NCBI RefSeq assembly: GCF_030433645.1
Contig: NZ_JAROCG010000001.1
Location: forward strand, 2,790,001 to 2,854,000
Reading direction: 5' to 3'
Origin: Arthrobacter burdickii
GTDB lineage: Bacteria; Actinomycetota; Actinomycetes; Actinomycetales; Micrococcaceae
DNA length: 64,000 nucleotides
The number at the start of each line of letters is the position of its first letter. The stretch's first letter is position 1. Shown here piece by piece: positions 4,751-16,341 of the stretch. The position numbers and the translations under genes were made by a program. The notes under the pieces are model-generated. The model ran no database searches and had not been told where the DNA came from. It saw only the letters and a program-made list of their open reading frames with translations.

Positions 4751-5159
4751 TAGCCCACCTGCAAAGCGCTCCCCCTCCATCGCCGTCAACTCGAGCAATA
4801 CGCGCACCCGATGGAGTTTCGCCCCGGGTTGATCGGCAAGAGCAGCAGACGGTTCGAGAGGTACCCACCCGTCGGTCTCGGTAGGAAGAACCCCTGGATA
4901 CGCGCAAGTTCCTCCATCAAGTCGGGCTGAAGCGCCCAGCAGGGCAGGAGGAGTCCGCGGAGCGGCCGTCAGGACCGTGATGACCGGGGCCCGACGAGAG
5001 CGAGCAGAACCGCTGGCACCAGCAACCTCACGTATTTACGCGATGCTTCCGATGTCATGCTCGGCCGTCTCCCATCGGGTCTTGGGGAATCCCTAGGACC
5101 CGACGGACGGGGAACTGATGGGGTTCAACCCCTCTAAGGTGCGATTGCCGAAGGCACCC
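4751..5159. other. Non-coding stretch
   Basis: No convincing gene is seen in these 409 bases. A 29-codon minus-strand ORF at about 5058-4972 encodes a signal-peptide-like peptide (MTSEASRKYVRLLVPAVLL...) and may be the broken start of a lost secreted protein. A short inverted repeat (GGGGTT/AACCCC) lies near 5117. The rest has no coding character in any frame. Confidence 0.4.
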
Positions 5160-5324: not shown

Positions 5325-6071
5325 TTAGGTTCCTGCCGGTTCCGGCACGGACGCGGCCGTATTGCCCAGTCTCGCTATCAGGGACGGGTGCACGATCATG
5401 TTGCCGGGACGGGCGTGCCTCAAAGTGTCCAGCATGATCCCCAGGGAACCGTCCTTTGGAAGGAAGCCACAGATACCCATGCGGGCTGCCTCCTGCAGCG
5501 CGCCCTGGGACGGGTTGCCGGTCAGCATGACAATCCGGGTCTTCGGTGCTTCCGACAGAATCCGCTCGGAGGCCTTGAGCCCGGAACCGTCCGCAAGATA
5601 CAGATCCATGATGATGACGTCGGGTCGGAGGTTCCGGAACATCGGTACCGCGCACTCAACGGTTCGTGCGGTTCCCACACTCTTCAGGTCCGGTTCCCGG
5701 TCAATTGCTCCCGCCAGCAACTCGGAAAATGTGCGGTGGTCATCGACGATCAGGATGCGGAGGCATTCGCTTTCCGGCTTGGTCTCAGGCCACGTCGTGG
5801 GATCGCTGTCTGTGACTGCCTGGCTGCAAGCATGTTCCTCCGCTGGGCCACGCTCACTGGTGCCCCTCTGGAACCTAGCGTGCGCAGTGATCGACGCTCG
5901 AAGCGGCGATGTCTGTATCGGCCCTTGCGGAGGGCCACCTGAATCGAACGCGTCCCCTACCGGCTTTGAACCGATCGCCATGCCGTCGCCCCAGTAACCA
6001 AGCTCTACCCCCATGCTGCCCGAAGTACGGGTACGCGCGTGAACATAAAGCTGAAGAGCCGGTTCCTTCAT
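5325..6071 (-). CDS. Receiver-domain-only response regulator
   Basis: The C-terminal half (about residues 103-225) is a complete CheY-type receiver. It has the acidic pair D110-D111 (IVDDH), phospho-acceptor D156 (VIIMDLYLADGSG), T184 (MLTGNPS) and K206 (FLPKDG). No HTH or other output domain follows; the protein ends about 25 residues after the last helix. The first 100 residues are low-complexity and partly basic, and the true start may be internal (for example MAIGSKPV, about 5981). The receiver is closely similar to the C-terminal domain of the SARP protein at 7866-9308. The adjacent kinase gene is dead, so any phosphodonor must act in trans. Confidence 0.75.
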   Translation of the reverse strand: MKEPALQLYVHARTRTSGSMGVELGYWGDGMAIGSKPVGDAFDSGGPPQGPIQTSPLRASITAHARFQRGTSERGPAEEHACSQAVTDSDPTTWPETKPESECLRILIVDDHRTFSELLAGAIDREPDLKSVGTARTVECAVPMFRNLRPDVIIMDLYLADGSGLKASERILSEAPKTRIVMLTGNPSQGALQEAARMGICGFLPKDGSLGIMLDTLRHARPGNMIVHPSLIARLGNTAASVPEPAGT

Positions 6072-6845
6072 CGCATCGTCCTTTCGATCACGACCACGAA
6101 TGGCCAGTACTCATAGTCCGGGCAGAAGGTACCAGCACCTACAAACGGGCACCAGTACCTCGGGCACACCTCCACCGGTGAACCGTCAAACCATGATGCG
6201 ACTCAGACACTGGGGAAACCTTAGATAGAGGGACAACCGCGGAGTGGCATCCCTGGACGGTATGACCGTGTTCTGCAAACGACCGTCCATGGACCACTCT
6301 TCAAACACGAACAGCAGAACGGCGCGGCGTGTCCCATGGGACGTGTCCGGAACAAAGGTGTTGTGACCCCCCCACCCGCGAGACAATTCGGTGTCCGCCT
6401 CCCGAAGTACCGACGCTCCCTGTGTCTCGAAAACCTAAAGGTTTCGATACACCATTTCGGGGCCTTGGTCAGGGCTCCGAGCCCCGTGATTGTGGGACTG
6501 CTCCTGACTCGAAAACTTGTCTCGCCGTCTTCTGTCTCAGTAACGGCGACACGCCAGCTCGCAGCAGCATCCTCGCGGAGCCTCCTCCACCTCGATCCCG
6601 GGACTCCCACCATGGGGTATCGCCATCACGGCAGCTGCCACGCCACACACCCACATACGACATGGCAGGCCGGAAACCCGCCGATTCCACCCACTGCGGG
6701 CACGGAGACGACACTCAGTATTTCGGGCACCCTGCGGGGCTTAGACCACGGATGGCGCGTCGACCCGTTGGGACGTACCTCGCTGGTACCTGCCTCGCTG
6801 GTACAGGCCTGCTTCGGTGGGGGATGCAGGATTTTCGCAACATCT
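6072..6845. other. Long region without a supported gene
   Basis: About 770 bases between the divergently transcribed receiver gene (minus) and the 6846 gene (plus). Long open frames exist on both strands, but their translations are low-complexity, rich in Arg/Pro/Ser/Thr, and show no family features. A 12-base direct repeat (CCTCGCTGGTAC) occurs twice near 6778-6805. The region presumably holds the two divergent promoters plus remnant DNA. Confidence 0.5.
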
Positions 6846-7256
6846 ATGAGTACTGTCATAAGCATGCTTCCTTGTCCGGTGCTTCGATGCACAAATCCCG
6901 GTGCCGCCTTCGTGATGGATCGTCAGGGCCTAGGTGGTCGTTATCGCGAGGCCTACGTCTGCGCTGAACATAAGGCGCTGATCGACGCCGGGTCTCCGTG
7001 GCACCTGGAGAACCATTCCGTCGTGATCGGCCAGGACGTACCGCCGGTGCTGGAGAGCTGGTCTGCCCGGCCGAGCCTGGAGGCTGACGGCTTCACTCTT
7101 ACTCTTCACATCGCGGGCCGGACCAACCCCGTTGACGTTTTTATGACACCGACAGAAGCAAGGACGCTGGCCGTGTTCATCAACGCAACCAACAGCGCCA
7201 GCGGCCGCCACCGTCTGTCAGCGCCTGAGGATTCGTTGATAGACCGGGCGCACTGA
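6846..7256 (+). CDS. Hypothetical protein with a Cys/His cluster
   Basis: This 136-residue protein (alternative start 6864) has an N-terminal cluster of the form C-x4-C ... C-x2-H: LPCPVLRCTNPG, then YVCAEHKALIDAG. Together with the short loop between them it suggests a zinc-binding knuckle. The C-terminal half (LTLHIAGRTNPVDVFMTPTEARTLAVFI) resembles a small beta-alpha domain. The open frame extends upstream to 6336, but that part is not protein-like. No family was recognised. It lies between the two receiver-domain regulator loci and points in the same direction as the SARP gene. Confidence 0.55.
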   Translation: MSTVISMLPCPVLRCTNPGAAFVMDRQGLGGRYREAYVCAEHKALIDAGSPWHLENHSVVIGQDVPPVLESWSARPSLEADGFTLTLHIAGRTNPVDVFMTPTEARTLAVFINATNSASGRHRLSAPEDSLIDRAH

Positions 7257-7614: not shown

Positions 7615-7865
7615 GTTCCAGACGCCATCCGAGCAGCCCACCCGTCCGTCTCACAACGTAATGGTTGCTTCGTACGCTGCAATCATCCATCCTCCCTCCG
7701 GTGAAGGGAGGACGGCGACAGAAGTTTCACCCCAGGTTCCGGGCCATCACTCGGATTACTGAGTACGCCCCTTACGCGCTGCGTACCGACTACTCGTGTG
7801 CATGTGTTCTCCGACCCCTTCTAATTCTATTAGGTGCGGCAGGAAATCAATTGGGGAAAGATATT

Positions 7866-9308
7866 GTGATCGCTTTGGAATTGATCAAAAAAGCAACTAA
7901 TTCAACTCAATTTTCCGAAGCGTCCGGGCAGTCGTCGGCACTTCAGATCTCCGTCCTGGGCCCGCTGACCATTCGCCGGGGAGACACTACCCTCAACGCC
8001 AACGACCTGGGCGGACCCAAACCCCGCCAGGTACTCGAGATCCTTCTCCTGAGCTTCGGTCTGGCAGTATCCAAGACCCGCATCATCGATCTGCTGTGGA
8101 ACGGCAACCCTCCGGCCGTCGCACTGCCGACCCTTGAAAGCTATGTCAGCGTCCTGCGCCGGCGGCTGCAGCCAGGAGCCGGCCGGACAGGTCCCCTGCG
8201 CACGGTCACGGGCGGCTACGTGATCGAGCCCTCGCTCGTGAGCCTTGATGCGAACCGGTTCGAAACTCTCACCAAGCAGGCCAGCGTGGCACCGCCACCG
8301 GTCGCGCTGCCACTGCTGGCCGAAGCACTCCAACTCGCTTCCGCCCCGCTGCTCGGCGACGAGCTGCTGCCGGCCTGGGCCGAAGAGGAACGGGCCCTGC
8401 ACGCCGAGCGGGTCGGTCATACCCGTGTCCTGGCCGCGGAAACCGCGCTCATCATGGGAGATGTCGGGAGGGCGATCGCCTGGGCCCATGAAACGGTCCG
8501 GGAGGATCCTTTGAACGAACGGGCGTGGACCGCCCTTGTCCTGGGGCTGGAGCAGAACGGCGAGAACACCGAAGCGCTGAGGGTGTTCGACCGCTGCCGT
8601 AGGGTCATGGACGAGGAACTGGGCTGCGCGCCCAGCGGAGTCCTGAAGGAAGCACAGGCCAGGCTCCTGACGACCACCGGGACGACCAGCAGGACGACTA
8701 CCGGGACGACTACCGGGACGACTACCGGGACGACGCACGCTGCGGCGCCTCCCCGGGCGTCGATGCGCGCGGTGACCGTCTCGGGTAACAGTCATCCCAC
8801 GGCATCACTGCTACCCGAGACGGACACCGAGACGGACACCGAGACGCAGACCGAGACGCAGACCGAGCGCCTGCGGGTTCTGGTCATCGATGATCACACC
8901 ACGTTCTCGGATCTGCTGTCCGGAGCACTGGACCGGGAACCTGATTTCATGAGTGTGGGAGCTGCTACATCGGTGGAGTCCGCCGCGACGATGTTCCGGG
9001 ACCTGCGCCCCGACGTCGTCGTCATGGACCTGCATCTTGCCGATGGGTCCGGGCTGAACGCCGCCGAGCGGATCCTCTCCGAGGCACCGCAGGCCCGGAT
9101 CGTCATGCTGACGGGCAACCCGTCCCAGGAAGCGCTGCGGGAAGCTGCCCGCATGGGAATCTGCGGGTTCCTTCCGAAGGACGGCGCCCTGGGAGTCATG
9201 CTCGACACCCTCCGGCACGCCCGCCCAGGGAACATGATCGTGCACCCGTCGCTGGTGGCCAGGCTGGGCGACGCTACCGGATCCGCGCCGGATCCTTCCG
9301 GAAAATAG
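7866..9308 (+). CDS. SARP-BTAD transcription regulator fused to a C-terminal receiver domain
   Basis: The 480-residue protein has three parts. Residues about 20-105 are an OmpR/PhoB-type winged helix of SARP type (SVLGPLTIRR..., LLWNGNPP, SYVSVLRRRL). Residues about 120-265 are a bacterial transcriptional activator domain of helical repeats (BTAD), ending EELGCAPSG. After a Thr/Gly linker and an acidic Thr/Glu/Asp linker comes a full receiver (about 335-460) with D342-D343, D388 (VVMDLHLADGSG), Thr in MLTGNPS and Lys in FLPKD. I chose the GTG at 7866 because GGGGAAAG precedes it by five bases and the upstream frame is not protein-like. SARPs activate operons by binding direct repeats upstream of the promoter. 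Phosphorylation of the receiver probably gates this, but its kinase gene is broken. Confidence 0.85.
   Translation: MIALELIKKATNSTQFSEASGQSSALQISVLGPLTIRRGDTTLNANDLGGPKPRQVLEILLLSFGLAVSKTRIIDLLWNGNPPAVALPTLESYVSVLRRRLQPGAGRTGPLRTVTGGYVIEPSLVSLDANRFETLTKQASVAPPPVALPLLAEALQLASAPLLGDELLPAWAEEERALHAERVGHTRVLAAETALIMGDVGRAIAWAHETVREDPLNERAWTALVLGLEQNGENTEALRVFDRCRRVMDEELGCAPSGVLKEAQARLLTTTGTTSRTTTGTTTGTTTGTTHAAAPPRASMRAVTVSGNSHPTASLLPETDTETDTETQTETQTERLRVLVIDDHTTFSDLLSGALDREPDFMSVGAATSVESAATMFRDLRPDVVVMDLHLADGSGLNAAERILSEAPQARIVMLTGNPSQEALREAARMGICGFLPKDGALGVMLDTLRHARPGNMIVHPSLVARLGDATGSAPDPSGK
8669..8734 (+). repeat. 12-bp tandem repeat encoding a Thr/Gly linker
   Basis: About five and a half copies of a 12-base unit (GGGACGACTACC and variants) lie in frame in the SARP-receiver gene and encode TTGT-type repeats between BTAD and receiver. 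The unit is a multiple of three, so copy number can change without frameshift. Confidence 0.85.
8817..8867 (+). repeat. 12-bp tandem repeat encoding an acidic linker
   Basis: Four 12-base units (two GAGACGGACACC, two GAGACGCAGACC) encode ETDTETDTETQTETQTE immediately before the receiver domain. This is a second, compositionally different repeat linker in the same gene. Confidence 0.85.
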
Positions 9309-9323
9309 CCGGGCACGCCGACC

Positions 9324-9728
9324 GTGCGGAAACTCCACGCAGGAAAAACCCACCACGCCACCACGCACGACACCACGCACGACACCACGACTGCCCCGGA
9401 AGTCACCGAACGACGCGAGGTCCGGGCAGCCGTCGCACGTTTTCTCACGGTCGGCTTCCTGGCCCTCGTCCTGGTGGCAACACCCGTTGCTTTCTGGATC
9501 CGAGCAGAAGCCGAACAGCACGCCCTGGCCAACGCCAGGGACATCACCCAACGCCTGGCCGACAACGTGGTCGGGCCATTGATCACGAACCAACTCCTTG
9601 CCCGGGAGCCCGCCGTGAAGGGATGTGCGATCGTGTCTGGTGCGCTTCCCTTCGATCGTTCCCACTCCCGTATACCGTTTCCTCGGCAGGGCGGACCAGC
9701 TCTAGACGTGGCAGTGCCACTGGCTTAG
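9324..9728 (+). pseudogene. Truncated sensor histidine kinase
   Basis: The frame opens 15 bases after the SARP-receiver stop. It starts with a His/Thr-rich stretch built on a 12-base repeat, then EVRAAVARFL and a membrane helix (LALVLVATPVAFWI), then the beginning of the sensor region (AEQHALANARDITQRLADNVVGPLITNQLLAREPA). These are standard features of actinobacterial kinases that pair with such receivers. At about 9613 the similarity stops. The remaining codons (VKGCAIVSG...) are unrelated, and no HAMP, DHp or ATPase domain follows. The kinase is therefore a 5' fragment, cut off at a junction with foreign sequence. Confidence 0.75.
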
Positions 9729-15372: not shown

Positions 15373-16341
15373 GTGTCCCACGTTAATGCTCGTCTGACGG
15401 TGCATGGAAGACAGTTGCTTGTTGATCGGGTGGCGGCAGGTCGCCCGGTCGCCCATATCGCTGCTGAGTTGGGCGTGTCCCGGCAGACCGCGTACCGGTG
15501 GGTCGGCCGGTACCGGGCCGAAGGAACCGCGGGGCTGCGGGACCGTTCGAGCCGACCACGATCATCGCCCAGGCGTACCAGCGCCGATCGGGAACAGGAA
15601 GTCCTGCAGGCCCGGCAGGCTCTGCGCTTCGGGCCGTTGCGCATCGCGGCAGTCACGGGTGTCCCGGCACGCACCGTGACCCGGATCCTGCACCGCCATC
15701 AGGTGCCGCGGCTCGCGGACTGCGATCCGCTCACCGGGACCCCAATTCGTGCGTCGCGGGCGAGCTCGAACCGGTACGAGCGCACCACCCCCGGCGAGCT
15801 GGTCCACCTGGACGTCAAAAAACTCGGACGGATACCGGCCGGTGGTGGCTGGCGGGCGCACGGGCGTTCCGAGCAGGTCAGAGGCCGCGGCATCGGCTAC
15901 GACTACGTCCACGTCGCCATCGATGATCACACCCGGGTCGGGTACGCCGAAGTCCTCCCCGACGAAAAAGGCGCAACCGCCGCGGGGTTCCTCGTCCGCG
16001 CCGGCATCTACTTCGCCGAACAAGGCATCAACCGTATCGAACGCGTCATCACCGACAACGCCTTCGCCTACCGCAACTCCGCCGCATTCGCCCGGGCCGT
16101 GGCGGACCTCGGAGCCGTTCAACGCTTCATCAAACCCCACTGCCCCTGGACCAACGGCAAAGCCGAACGCTTCAACCGCACACTCCAAACCGAATGGGCC
16201 TACCGCCAGGTCTTCACCAGCAGCGCTCAACGCCAAGCCGCCCTTGCACCCTGGCTCCAGCACTACAACACTGAACGCATCCACACCGGCATCGGAGCCA
16301 CACCCATCACCCGAGTGTCACCAACCTGATGGCCCAGTACA
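15338..16341 (+). mobile_element. IS481-family insertion sequence
   Basis: This compact element of about 1.0 kb carries one transposase gene. I place the ends at TGT (15338) and ACA (16341), within a longer AGCTGT...ACAGCT match. Beyond that the terminal repeats are only weakly similar, so the ends are approximate. No clear target duplication is visible in the flanks. The right end touches the stop codon of the SRPBCC gene. Confidence 0.65.
15373..16329 (+). CDS. IS481-family transposase
   Basis: This 318-residue protein starts at GTG. Residues 1-60 are a helix-turn-helix (VAHIAAELGVSRQTAYRWVGRY), followed by a second basic helical region (RSSPRRTSADREQEVLQAR). The rve-type integrase core (about 135-300) has the DDE residues in LVHLDVKKLG (first Asp), RVITDNAFAYR (second Asp) and CPWTNGKAERFNRTLQTEW (Glu). 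The end, HYNTERIHTGIGATPITR, is characteristic of IS481. The frame is intact, so the element may still be active. A perfect inverted repeat covers its ribosome-binding site. Confidence 0.93.
   Translation: MSHVNARLTVHGRQLLVDRVAAGRPVAHIAAELGVSRQTAYRWVGRYRAEGTAGLRDRSSRPRSSPRRTSADREQEVLQARQALRFGPLRIAAVTGVPARTVTRILHRHQVPRLADCDPLTGTPIRASRASSNRYERTTPGELVHLDVKKLGRIPAGGGWRAHGRSEQVRGRGIGYDYVHVAIDDHTRVGYAEVLPDEKGATAAGFLVRAGIYFAEQGINRIERVITDNAFAYRNSAAFARAVADLGAVQRFIKPHCPWTNGKAERFNRTLQTEWAYRQVFTSSAQRQAALAPWLQHYNTERIHTGIGATPITRVSPT

Follow-up and report, generated by a model that had tools for sequence, protein, structure and literature searches.

How activators of the SARP family receive their signals is, to our knowledge, mostly unexplained, and many of these proteins are without a sensor domain. 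A gene in the 64,000-nucleotide stretch of Arthrobacter burdickii DNA analyzed here (the window) raises the question of whether phosphorylation might control such an activator directly, because its inferred product places the winged helix and BTAD domain of a SARP at the N-terminus and the receiver domain of a response regulator at the C-terminus. This arrangement, which had been picked out in an earlier note made from the letters of the sequence, was borne out by Pfam on a single open frame, preceded by the ribosome site GGGGAAAG, in which all three domains exceeded their gathering scores (Table 1). The succession of Trans_reg_C and BTAD is that of the SARP family, in keeping with fold matches to AfsR and EmbR, and the receiver has the residue set expected of a response regulator, as the same note had read it: the acidic pair D342/D343, the acceptor D388, T416 and K438 are all intact. 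No Pfam match in the protein was obtained for GerE, the C-terminal helix-turn-helix domain of NarL/FixJ-type regulators, or for FHA, the C-terminal domain of EmbR. The order of the domains, which the note had contrasted with the normal one, is indeed unusual for a response regulator, but a C-terminal regulatory domain is ordinary for a SARP, AfsR and EmbR being examples. For a SARP, what is new is which domain occupies the C-terminus, not that a domain is found there.

Table 1. Features of the window around the fusion gene, with the candidate operator sequence (positions are those of the window)
Feature	Position	Strand	Remarks
Counterpart of a stretch that precedes the Fn3 surface-protein gene in the intact locus	4762..4967	+	About 69% identical
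Decayed operator-like repeat	5081..5097	.	2 mismatches to CCTAGGGANNNCCTAGG
Solo receiver gene	5325..6071	-	74% identical to the fusion receiver; retains DDDTK; falls within the fused clade
Small conserved cluster protein gene	6915..7256	+	DNA at 6816-7210 is 79% identical to L038 1915-2310
Block common to the window and the intact locus	7742..9615	+	About 20% diverged up to ~7950, then almost identical to ~9613
SARP-BTAD-receiver fusion gene	7866..9308	+	480 aa, GTG start, no internal stop
Winged helix (Trans_reg_C), aa 51-116	8016..8213	+	Pfam E 2.2e-6; aligns with AfsR (8k60) and EmbR (2fez)
BTAD, aa 127-268	8244..8669	+	Pfam E 2.8e-18
Linker with two unlike 12-bp tandem repeats (8669-8734 and 8815-8867)	8669..8867	+	Relatives have shorter, unrelated linkers
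C-terminal receiver (Response_reg), aa 338-447 of 480	8877..9206	+	Pfam E 2.8e-18
Codon of the acceptor D388	9027-9029	+	One of the DDDTK residues
Truncated HisKA_3-type kinase gene	9324..9728	+	Similarity to the intact 492-aa kinase (L038) is confined to the first 98 aa
Candidate operator sequence, 11-bp period			CCTAGGGAAACCCTAGG

The two halves of the protein are joined by a linker in which two different repeats had been noticed, and both repeats were found. Among the fused proteins they are confined to the two copies in this genome; the linkers of the other fused proteins are unrelated and measure 14 to about 44 aa, giving a full range of 14-63 aa, and SARPs without a receiver instead extend 53-75 aa past the BTAD domain model. 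The linker coding sequence of both copies also holds an inverted repeat (window 8770-8829, 83% self-complementary over 60 bp). An AlphaFold2 model of the window protein was built from a 69-row alignment (the window protein and 68 of 95 stretches, with separate receivers and a few near-duplicates omitted). In this model (pLDDT 85, pTM 0.59) the linker is disordered, mostly with pLDDT below 50, and no defined contact between the SARP and the receiver is seen. The SARP half matches the folds of AfsR, as found in its transcription complex, and EmbR, and the folds nearest to the receiver half include those of DesR, VraR and LiaR.

To place the fusion among its relatives we searched 38 genomes of the genus, 395 of the family and 394 of the class, together with a named genome collection that contributed 36 loci (titled Arthrobacter, Pseudarthrobacter and Paenarthrobacter, and one Cryobacterium). 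The same architecture was recovered in 41 distinct fused proteins, that of the window included. After dereplication the loci comprised 30 with a fusion lacking GerE, 11 with a fusion retaining GerE, 20 in which SARP and receiver are encoded by separate genes, and 12 with the SARP alone; in these counts one locus (L100), which a distance rule had assigned to the SARP-alone class, was manually reassigned to the separate-gene class on account of its regulator, and two loci truncated at contig ends (L154 and L156) were left out, as they were from the trees. Separate-gene loci have the order SARP, NarL-type regulator (receiver plus GerE) and HisKA_3 kinase, interrupted in L046 by an Fn3-protein gene, and GerE is present in the separate-gene regulators tested as well as in the 11 fused relatives. 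In a tree of 73 SARP domains all 41 fused proteins formed one clade (support 100/98), and in a tree of receivers the same 41, joined by a solo receiver of the window, did likewise (97/90), with the pair L111 and L124 grouping with the proteins that keep GerE. GerE thus appears from the sequences to have been lost once or twice among the fusions. Separate genes are likely the ancestral state: because that state is the wider one, we read the direction as running from neighboring genes to fusion to loss of GerE, on trees whose roots were not inferred. The earlier note had held that a family in which the two genes are always separate would speak against the fusion; separate genes do occur, in 20 loci, but as the likely ancestral state of a group with 41 distinct fusions. 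Two apparent variants proved not to be real. A stop suspected between the SARP and the receiver in G374 and G155 (one TAG inside the match) gave way to a single open frame (L122 and L123), and a supposed three-part fusion in G067, with 1022-aa open frames, consists of separate frames (L125).

The fusion of the window is not the only one in its genome. A second copy, encoding a protein 98% identical to that of the window, is located at C1:2554738-2556174 (locus L038, here called the intact locus). It is followed by a complete kinase gene (L038 10194-11672), whose 492-aa product has both a HisKA_3 and a HATPase_c domain, and upstream of it lie genes for a 679-aa secreted protein (Fn3, CHB_HEX_C) and a multicopper oxidase. 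Thus, the partner histidine kinase is intact at L038, whereas just a 98-aa remnant adjoins the window copy, whose match to the intact kinase ends at ~9613. The two copies are roughly 20% different over window positions 7750-7950 and then show a handful of differences in ~1.66 kb, with none from 8800 to 9600, a mosaic suggestive of a recent gene conversion that overwrote part of an older duplicate. The window fusion is a partial duplicate, with the intact locus elsewhere in the genome, and to judge by the cluster fragments listed in Table 1 the window appears to contain a scrambled partial copy of the module. One of these fragments, the solo receiver, is probably a fusion copy minus its SARP part, because it is nested within the fused clade; with its phosphorylation residues intact, it might compete for the same kinase. 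We also noticed, by eye, an IS481-like transposase (window 15373-16329, + strand) and a resolvase fragment (2487-2696, - strand), which are perhaps tied to the rearranged region. In Arthrobacter cheniae Hz2 (G007; L126, L127, L198 and L199) several contigs begin or end within a SARP or kinase gene, which suggests that near-identical copies exist there too.

Is the window copy, then, dead or dying, with only the copy at L038 at work? We give this reading somewhat less than an even chance. It would account for the kinase gene that is cut at ~9613, for the scrambled cluster remnants and for the finding that no operator, intact kinase or candidate target gene stands alongside the window copy. Against it, the frame and all five phosphorylation residues of the window copy are intact, the near identity of the 3' 1.6 kb to the other copy points to a recent exchange or duplication that keeps the window copy intact, and intact second copies without a kinase are likewise present in two other strains (L141 and L161).

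SARP genes were found in 68 of the 395 family genomes: 42 with an intact-looking receiver (18 fused and 24 separate, the residues of the latter having been examined for the fetched loci, 19 rows), three with only a decayed fused receiver, 21 with the SARP alone, and two that are ambiguous (G007, because of contig breaks, and G154, with no receiver listed). At a cut-off of E 1e-40, a kinase orthologue was present in 42/42 genomes with an intact receiver, in 0/3 with decayed receivers only (G155, G281 and G374, each of which carries another SARP too), in 0/21 with the SARP alone, where some of the genes may be paralogues, and in 2/2 of the ambiguous genomes. The 327 family genomes without the SARP yielded two kinase matches, of which one was a fragment and the other had 32% identity, and a second kinase search in 15 genomes agreed, G281 giving just a partial match (36%).

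The DDDTK residues are kept in 23 of the 30 fusions without GerE, in all 11 with GerE and in all 19 separate receivers, and none of the seven fused proteins without the full set (L111, L122, L123, L124, L149, L150 and L158) has an adjoining kinase, though these seven fall in two clades and so represent about two events. The kinase-less fusions that keep their residues (those of the window, L141 and L161) are second copies in genomes that also have a kinase-linked copy; in L135 the residues are kept despite a kinase frame that is broken in two. Joint loss of kinase and receiver would be easy, because the genes are neighbors. Given the co-occurrence of the kinase with an intact receiver, control of the SARP fusion by phosphorylation is likely.

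What might the fusion regulate? SARP sites, in the available part of PMC10936776, are direct repeats 11 or 22 bp apart, and repeats with an 11-bp period, such as CCTAGGGAATCCCTAGG upstream of the Fn3 gene, stand before genes at the intact locus and in relatives, where we regard them as candidate operators. Exact matches to CTWGG-N6-CTWGG were found upstream of 11 of 13 Fn3-protein genes, 2 of 22 oxidase genes and 11 of 658 other genes of the same loci, several of these last preceding peroxidase genes; these counts are not independent, because related species share ancestry, and the motif forms were fitted after looking at the very promoters later counted. The control promoters had been reduced from 701 to 658 by dropping regions that shared 40 bases with a target region, and runs of N were skipped. 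Periods of 10, 12 and 22 gave 0-1 exact matches per target set. The oxidase promoters carry a related form, CAAGG/CAGGG-N6-CAA, at about -58 to -65 and -90, whether the locus is fused, separate or SARP-alone, and the pattern CWRGG[AT]3-N3-CWA was present in 12/22 of them, in 16/658 of the others and in 1/13 of the Fn3 promoters. The CTTGG and CAAGG forms are direct repeats; at the Fn3 sites direct and inverted repeats are indistinguishable, because CCTAGG is itself palindromic. The idea that the fused gene has a strong operator of its own held only in part: exact CTWGG-N6-CTWGG repeats were found upstream of 10/69 SARP genes, nine of them among the 11 of the GerE-keeping class, so that a repeat in the gene's own promoter seems clear only where GerE is kept and weak elsewhere.

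Over whole genomes, the exact sequence CTWGGGAANNNCTWGG occurred at 16 sites in 12 genomes. All nine of the sites in four genomes with a fusion and a kinase (G000, G024, G332 and G353) lie no more than 23 kb from the fused gene, as does one of the two in G193, and five in G028, G031 and G208 are away from the module. When CTAGGGANNNCCTAGG was searched for in 30 genomes with one mismatch allowed, some sites were again located away from the module, and G193, G365, G376, G155, G281 and G374 had none. Repeats also precede the oxidase gene in three of four SARP-alone genomes, from which we infer that a receiver is probably not essential for the SARP to work.

The genes next to these repeats recur. 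Multicopper-oxidase and Fn3-protein genes are found next to fused, separate and SARP-alone loci, if not next to every one, and genes for giant proteins (animal heme peroxidase plus RTX repeats) are close to the fused gene in several. In G353 the repeat sites also precede genes for a multicopper oxidase, an acyltransferase and a signal-peptidase-like protein; Pfam supports the acyltransferase there and, in G260, a signal peptidase belonging to that cluster. DUF1775 and CopD/CtaG genes adjoin, in G353, a multicopper-oxidase gene with an operator of its own (L192 1666-4390). The oxidase cluster also has genes for small Hpt-domain proteins (L194 13968-14360, with Pfam support, and similar genes in L192 and L195), in which the usual histidine seems by eye to be missing. 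Genes for GAF-ANTAR regulators adjoin operator-like sites (L194 13134-13937 and L196 12486-13235). According to the accessible portions of PMC6247904 and PMC11409713, two kinds of bacterial Mn(II) oxidase have been described, the multicopper oxidases and the heme peroxidases of animal type (MopA, which has calcium-binding domains), and Pseudomonas putida GB-1 requires the two-component system MnxS1/S2-MnxR to oxidize Mn. Because the Arthrobacter cluster has both kinds of enzyme, we take Mn(II) oxidation as a lead and not as a finding.

Comparison of the loci thus documents a fusion, its ancestry, its linkage to a kinase, the decay of receivers where the kinase is absent, and the repeats. The explanation that we favor, and consider probable as a whole, is as follows. 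A gene for a SARP activator became fused to the receiver of the adjacent NarL-type regulator, whose LuxR/GerE DNA-binding domain was later lost, leaving the SARP as sole output. At the intact locus D388 would receive its phosphate from the membrane HisKA_3 kinase whose gene lies just downstream; pairing of the phosphorylated receivers would then, through the flexible linker, unite two SARP domains on CTWGG/CAAGG direct repeats with an 11-bp period. The paired SARP would in turn recruit RNA polymerase to the genes for the secreted multicopper oxidase, the giant heme peroxidase with its calcium-binding repeats and the Fn3 surface protein; activation of transcription through sigma region 4 is characteristic of the SARP family. 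The window copy, if expressed, would need the kinase encoded at the other locus. Phosphorylation, pairing, DNA binding and activation are the steps that we infer. Since the SARP domain of AfsR is a monomer in solution and pairs on DNA (PMC10936776, as far as the text is available), a phosphorylation-paired receiver on a loose linker could supply the pairing.

The main rival has the receiver as a brake that covers the SARP domain until phosphorylation frees it, much as NOD-TPR restrains AfsR. The C-terminal NOD and TPR domains do inhibit the SARP domain of AfsR (stated in the available part of PMC10936776), and the receiver-less, SARP-alone relatives keep similar repeats before the oxidase gene. 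A fixed inhibitory contact is disfavored, however, by linkers that range from 14 to 63 aa, vary in sequence and are disordered in the model, and we think this reading rather unlikely, preferring pairing driven by the receiver. That the two halves act separately, the fusion being neutral and, for example, only fixing their ratio, is very improbable: seven proteins do stay fused despite a decayed receiver, but in 30 of the 41 fused proteins the receiver, now that GerE is lost, has no output evident apart from the SARP, and receiver residues are kept wherever a kinase is linked. Finally, although near-identical repeats can confuse assembly and contigs of A. cheniae end inside the SARP gene, an assembly join, a frameshift or an annotation error is refuted by the recurrence of the fusion, which with 41 distinct proteins and diverged linkers in many genomes can be neither chance nor an artefact.

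A SARP and a receiver also became fused on a second occasion. In the class search, 13 genomes of another family (f24) matched across both the SARP and receiver domains. All eight f24 loci examined encode SARP-receiver proteins, a kinase match adjoins seven of them, and the acidic pair, acceptor Asp, Thr and Lys are kept in their receivers, as read by eye; the one protein tested with Pfam has GerE at 28.6 bits. In a joint tree of SARP domains (39 of the 73 rows used above and 19 from class-search loci), a single clade of f24 and Micrococcaceae fusions was rejected (AU test, p=1.8e-5), for a grouping that was named after the matches had been seen. By this comparison the SARP-receiver-GerE fusion of f24 is of independent origin. 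Separate SARP, regulator and kinase genes were also found in families f3, f4, f34 and f43, and in family f16 in the order SARP-kinase-regulator. A wider proposal, which we advance tentatively and think doubtful as a whole, is that receivers were grafted C-terminally onto SARPs at least twice, making pairing on 11-bp repeats subject to Asp phosphorylation; that this switch runs a secreted metal-oxidizing program in the Arthrobacter group (multicopper oxidase and MopA-like heme peroxidase); and that the spare fusion and the solo receiver of the window genome draw on the same kinase.

Several known systems resemble the fusion in part. EmbR of Mycobacterium tuberculosis (2fez) likewise joins a winged helix and BTAD to a C-terminal domain linked to phosphorylation, and the SARP part of our model matches it with a TM score of 0.58 by target length, but its C-terminal domain is FHA and not an Asp receiver. 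The FHA domain of EmbR is tied to Ser/Thr kinase signaling. AfsR and other large SARPs (8k60 and 8hvr; TM 0.80-0.82 by target length) also have regulatory domains C-terminal to the SARP, and AfsR has 11-bp direct-repeat operators where the fusion group has candidate repeats, but they are controlled through NOD/TPR with ATP binding and protein phosphorylation, and the receiver is absent. These C-terminal domains, NOD-TPR in AfsR and FHA in EmbR, are those given for SARPs in the available part of PMC10936776. Regulators of the NarL/DesR/VraR type with HisKA_3 kinases share the receiver fold and the kinase class, and the separate-gene relatives are of this type; unlike them, the window fusion is without the GerE helix-turn-helix and has its DNA-binding domain before the receiver. 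Proteins of COG3947, such as Deide_19260, combine a receiver and a SARP-type DNA-binding activator in one polypeptide, but there, in the accessible text of PMC3564903, the receiver is N-terminal. PhyR has its output domain first and its receiver last (from the portion available of PMC3892343). Its output is sigma-like, binds an anti-sigma factor and is unrelated to SARP. Among titles and the beginnings of abstracts we recognized no description of a SARP with a C-terminal receiver, in a search outside of which most subscription papers fell.

The family thus offers matched natural versions of one activator: alone, beside a two-component regulator, fused to it with its helix-turn-helix domain, fused without that domain, and fused to a receiver that is dead; related repeats precede neighbor genes that they share. 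These versions make it directly testable whether a SARP is driven by phosphorylation, and in what way. The fusion shows a natural way to couple sensor kinases to SARPs, and it points to regulated genes for secreted oxidases and peroxidases in common soil bacteria, enzymes of kinds that elsewhere oxidize manganese.
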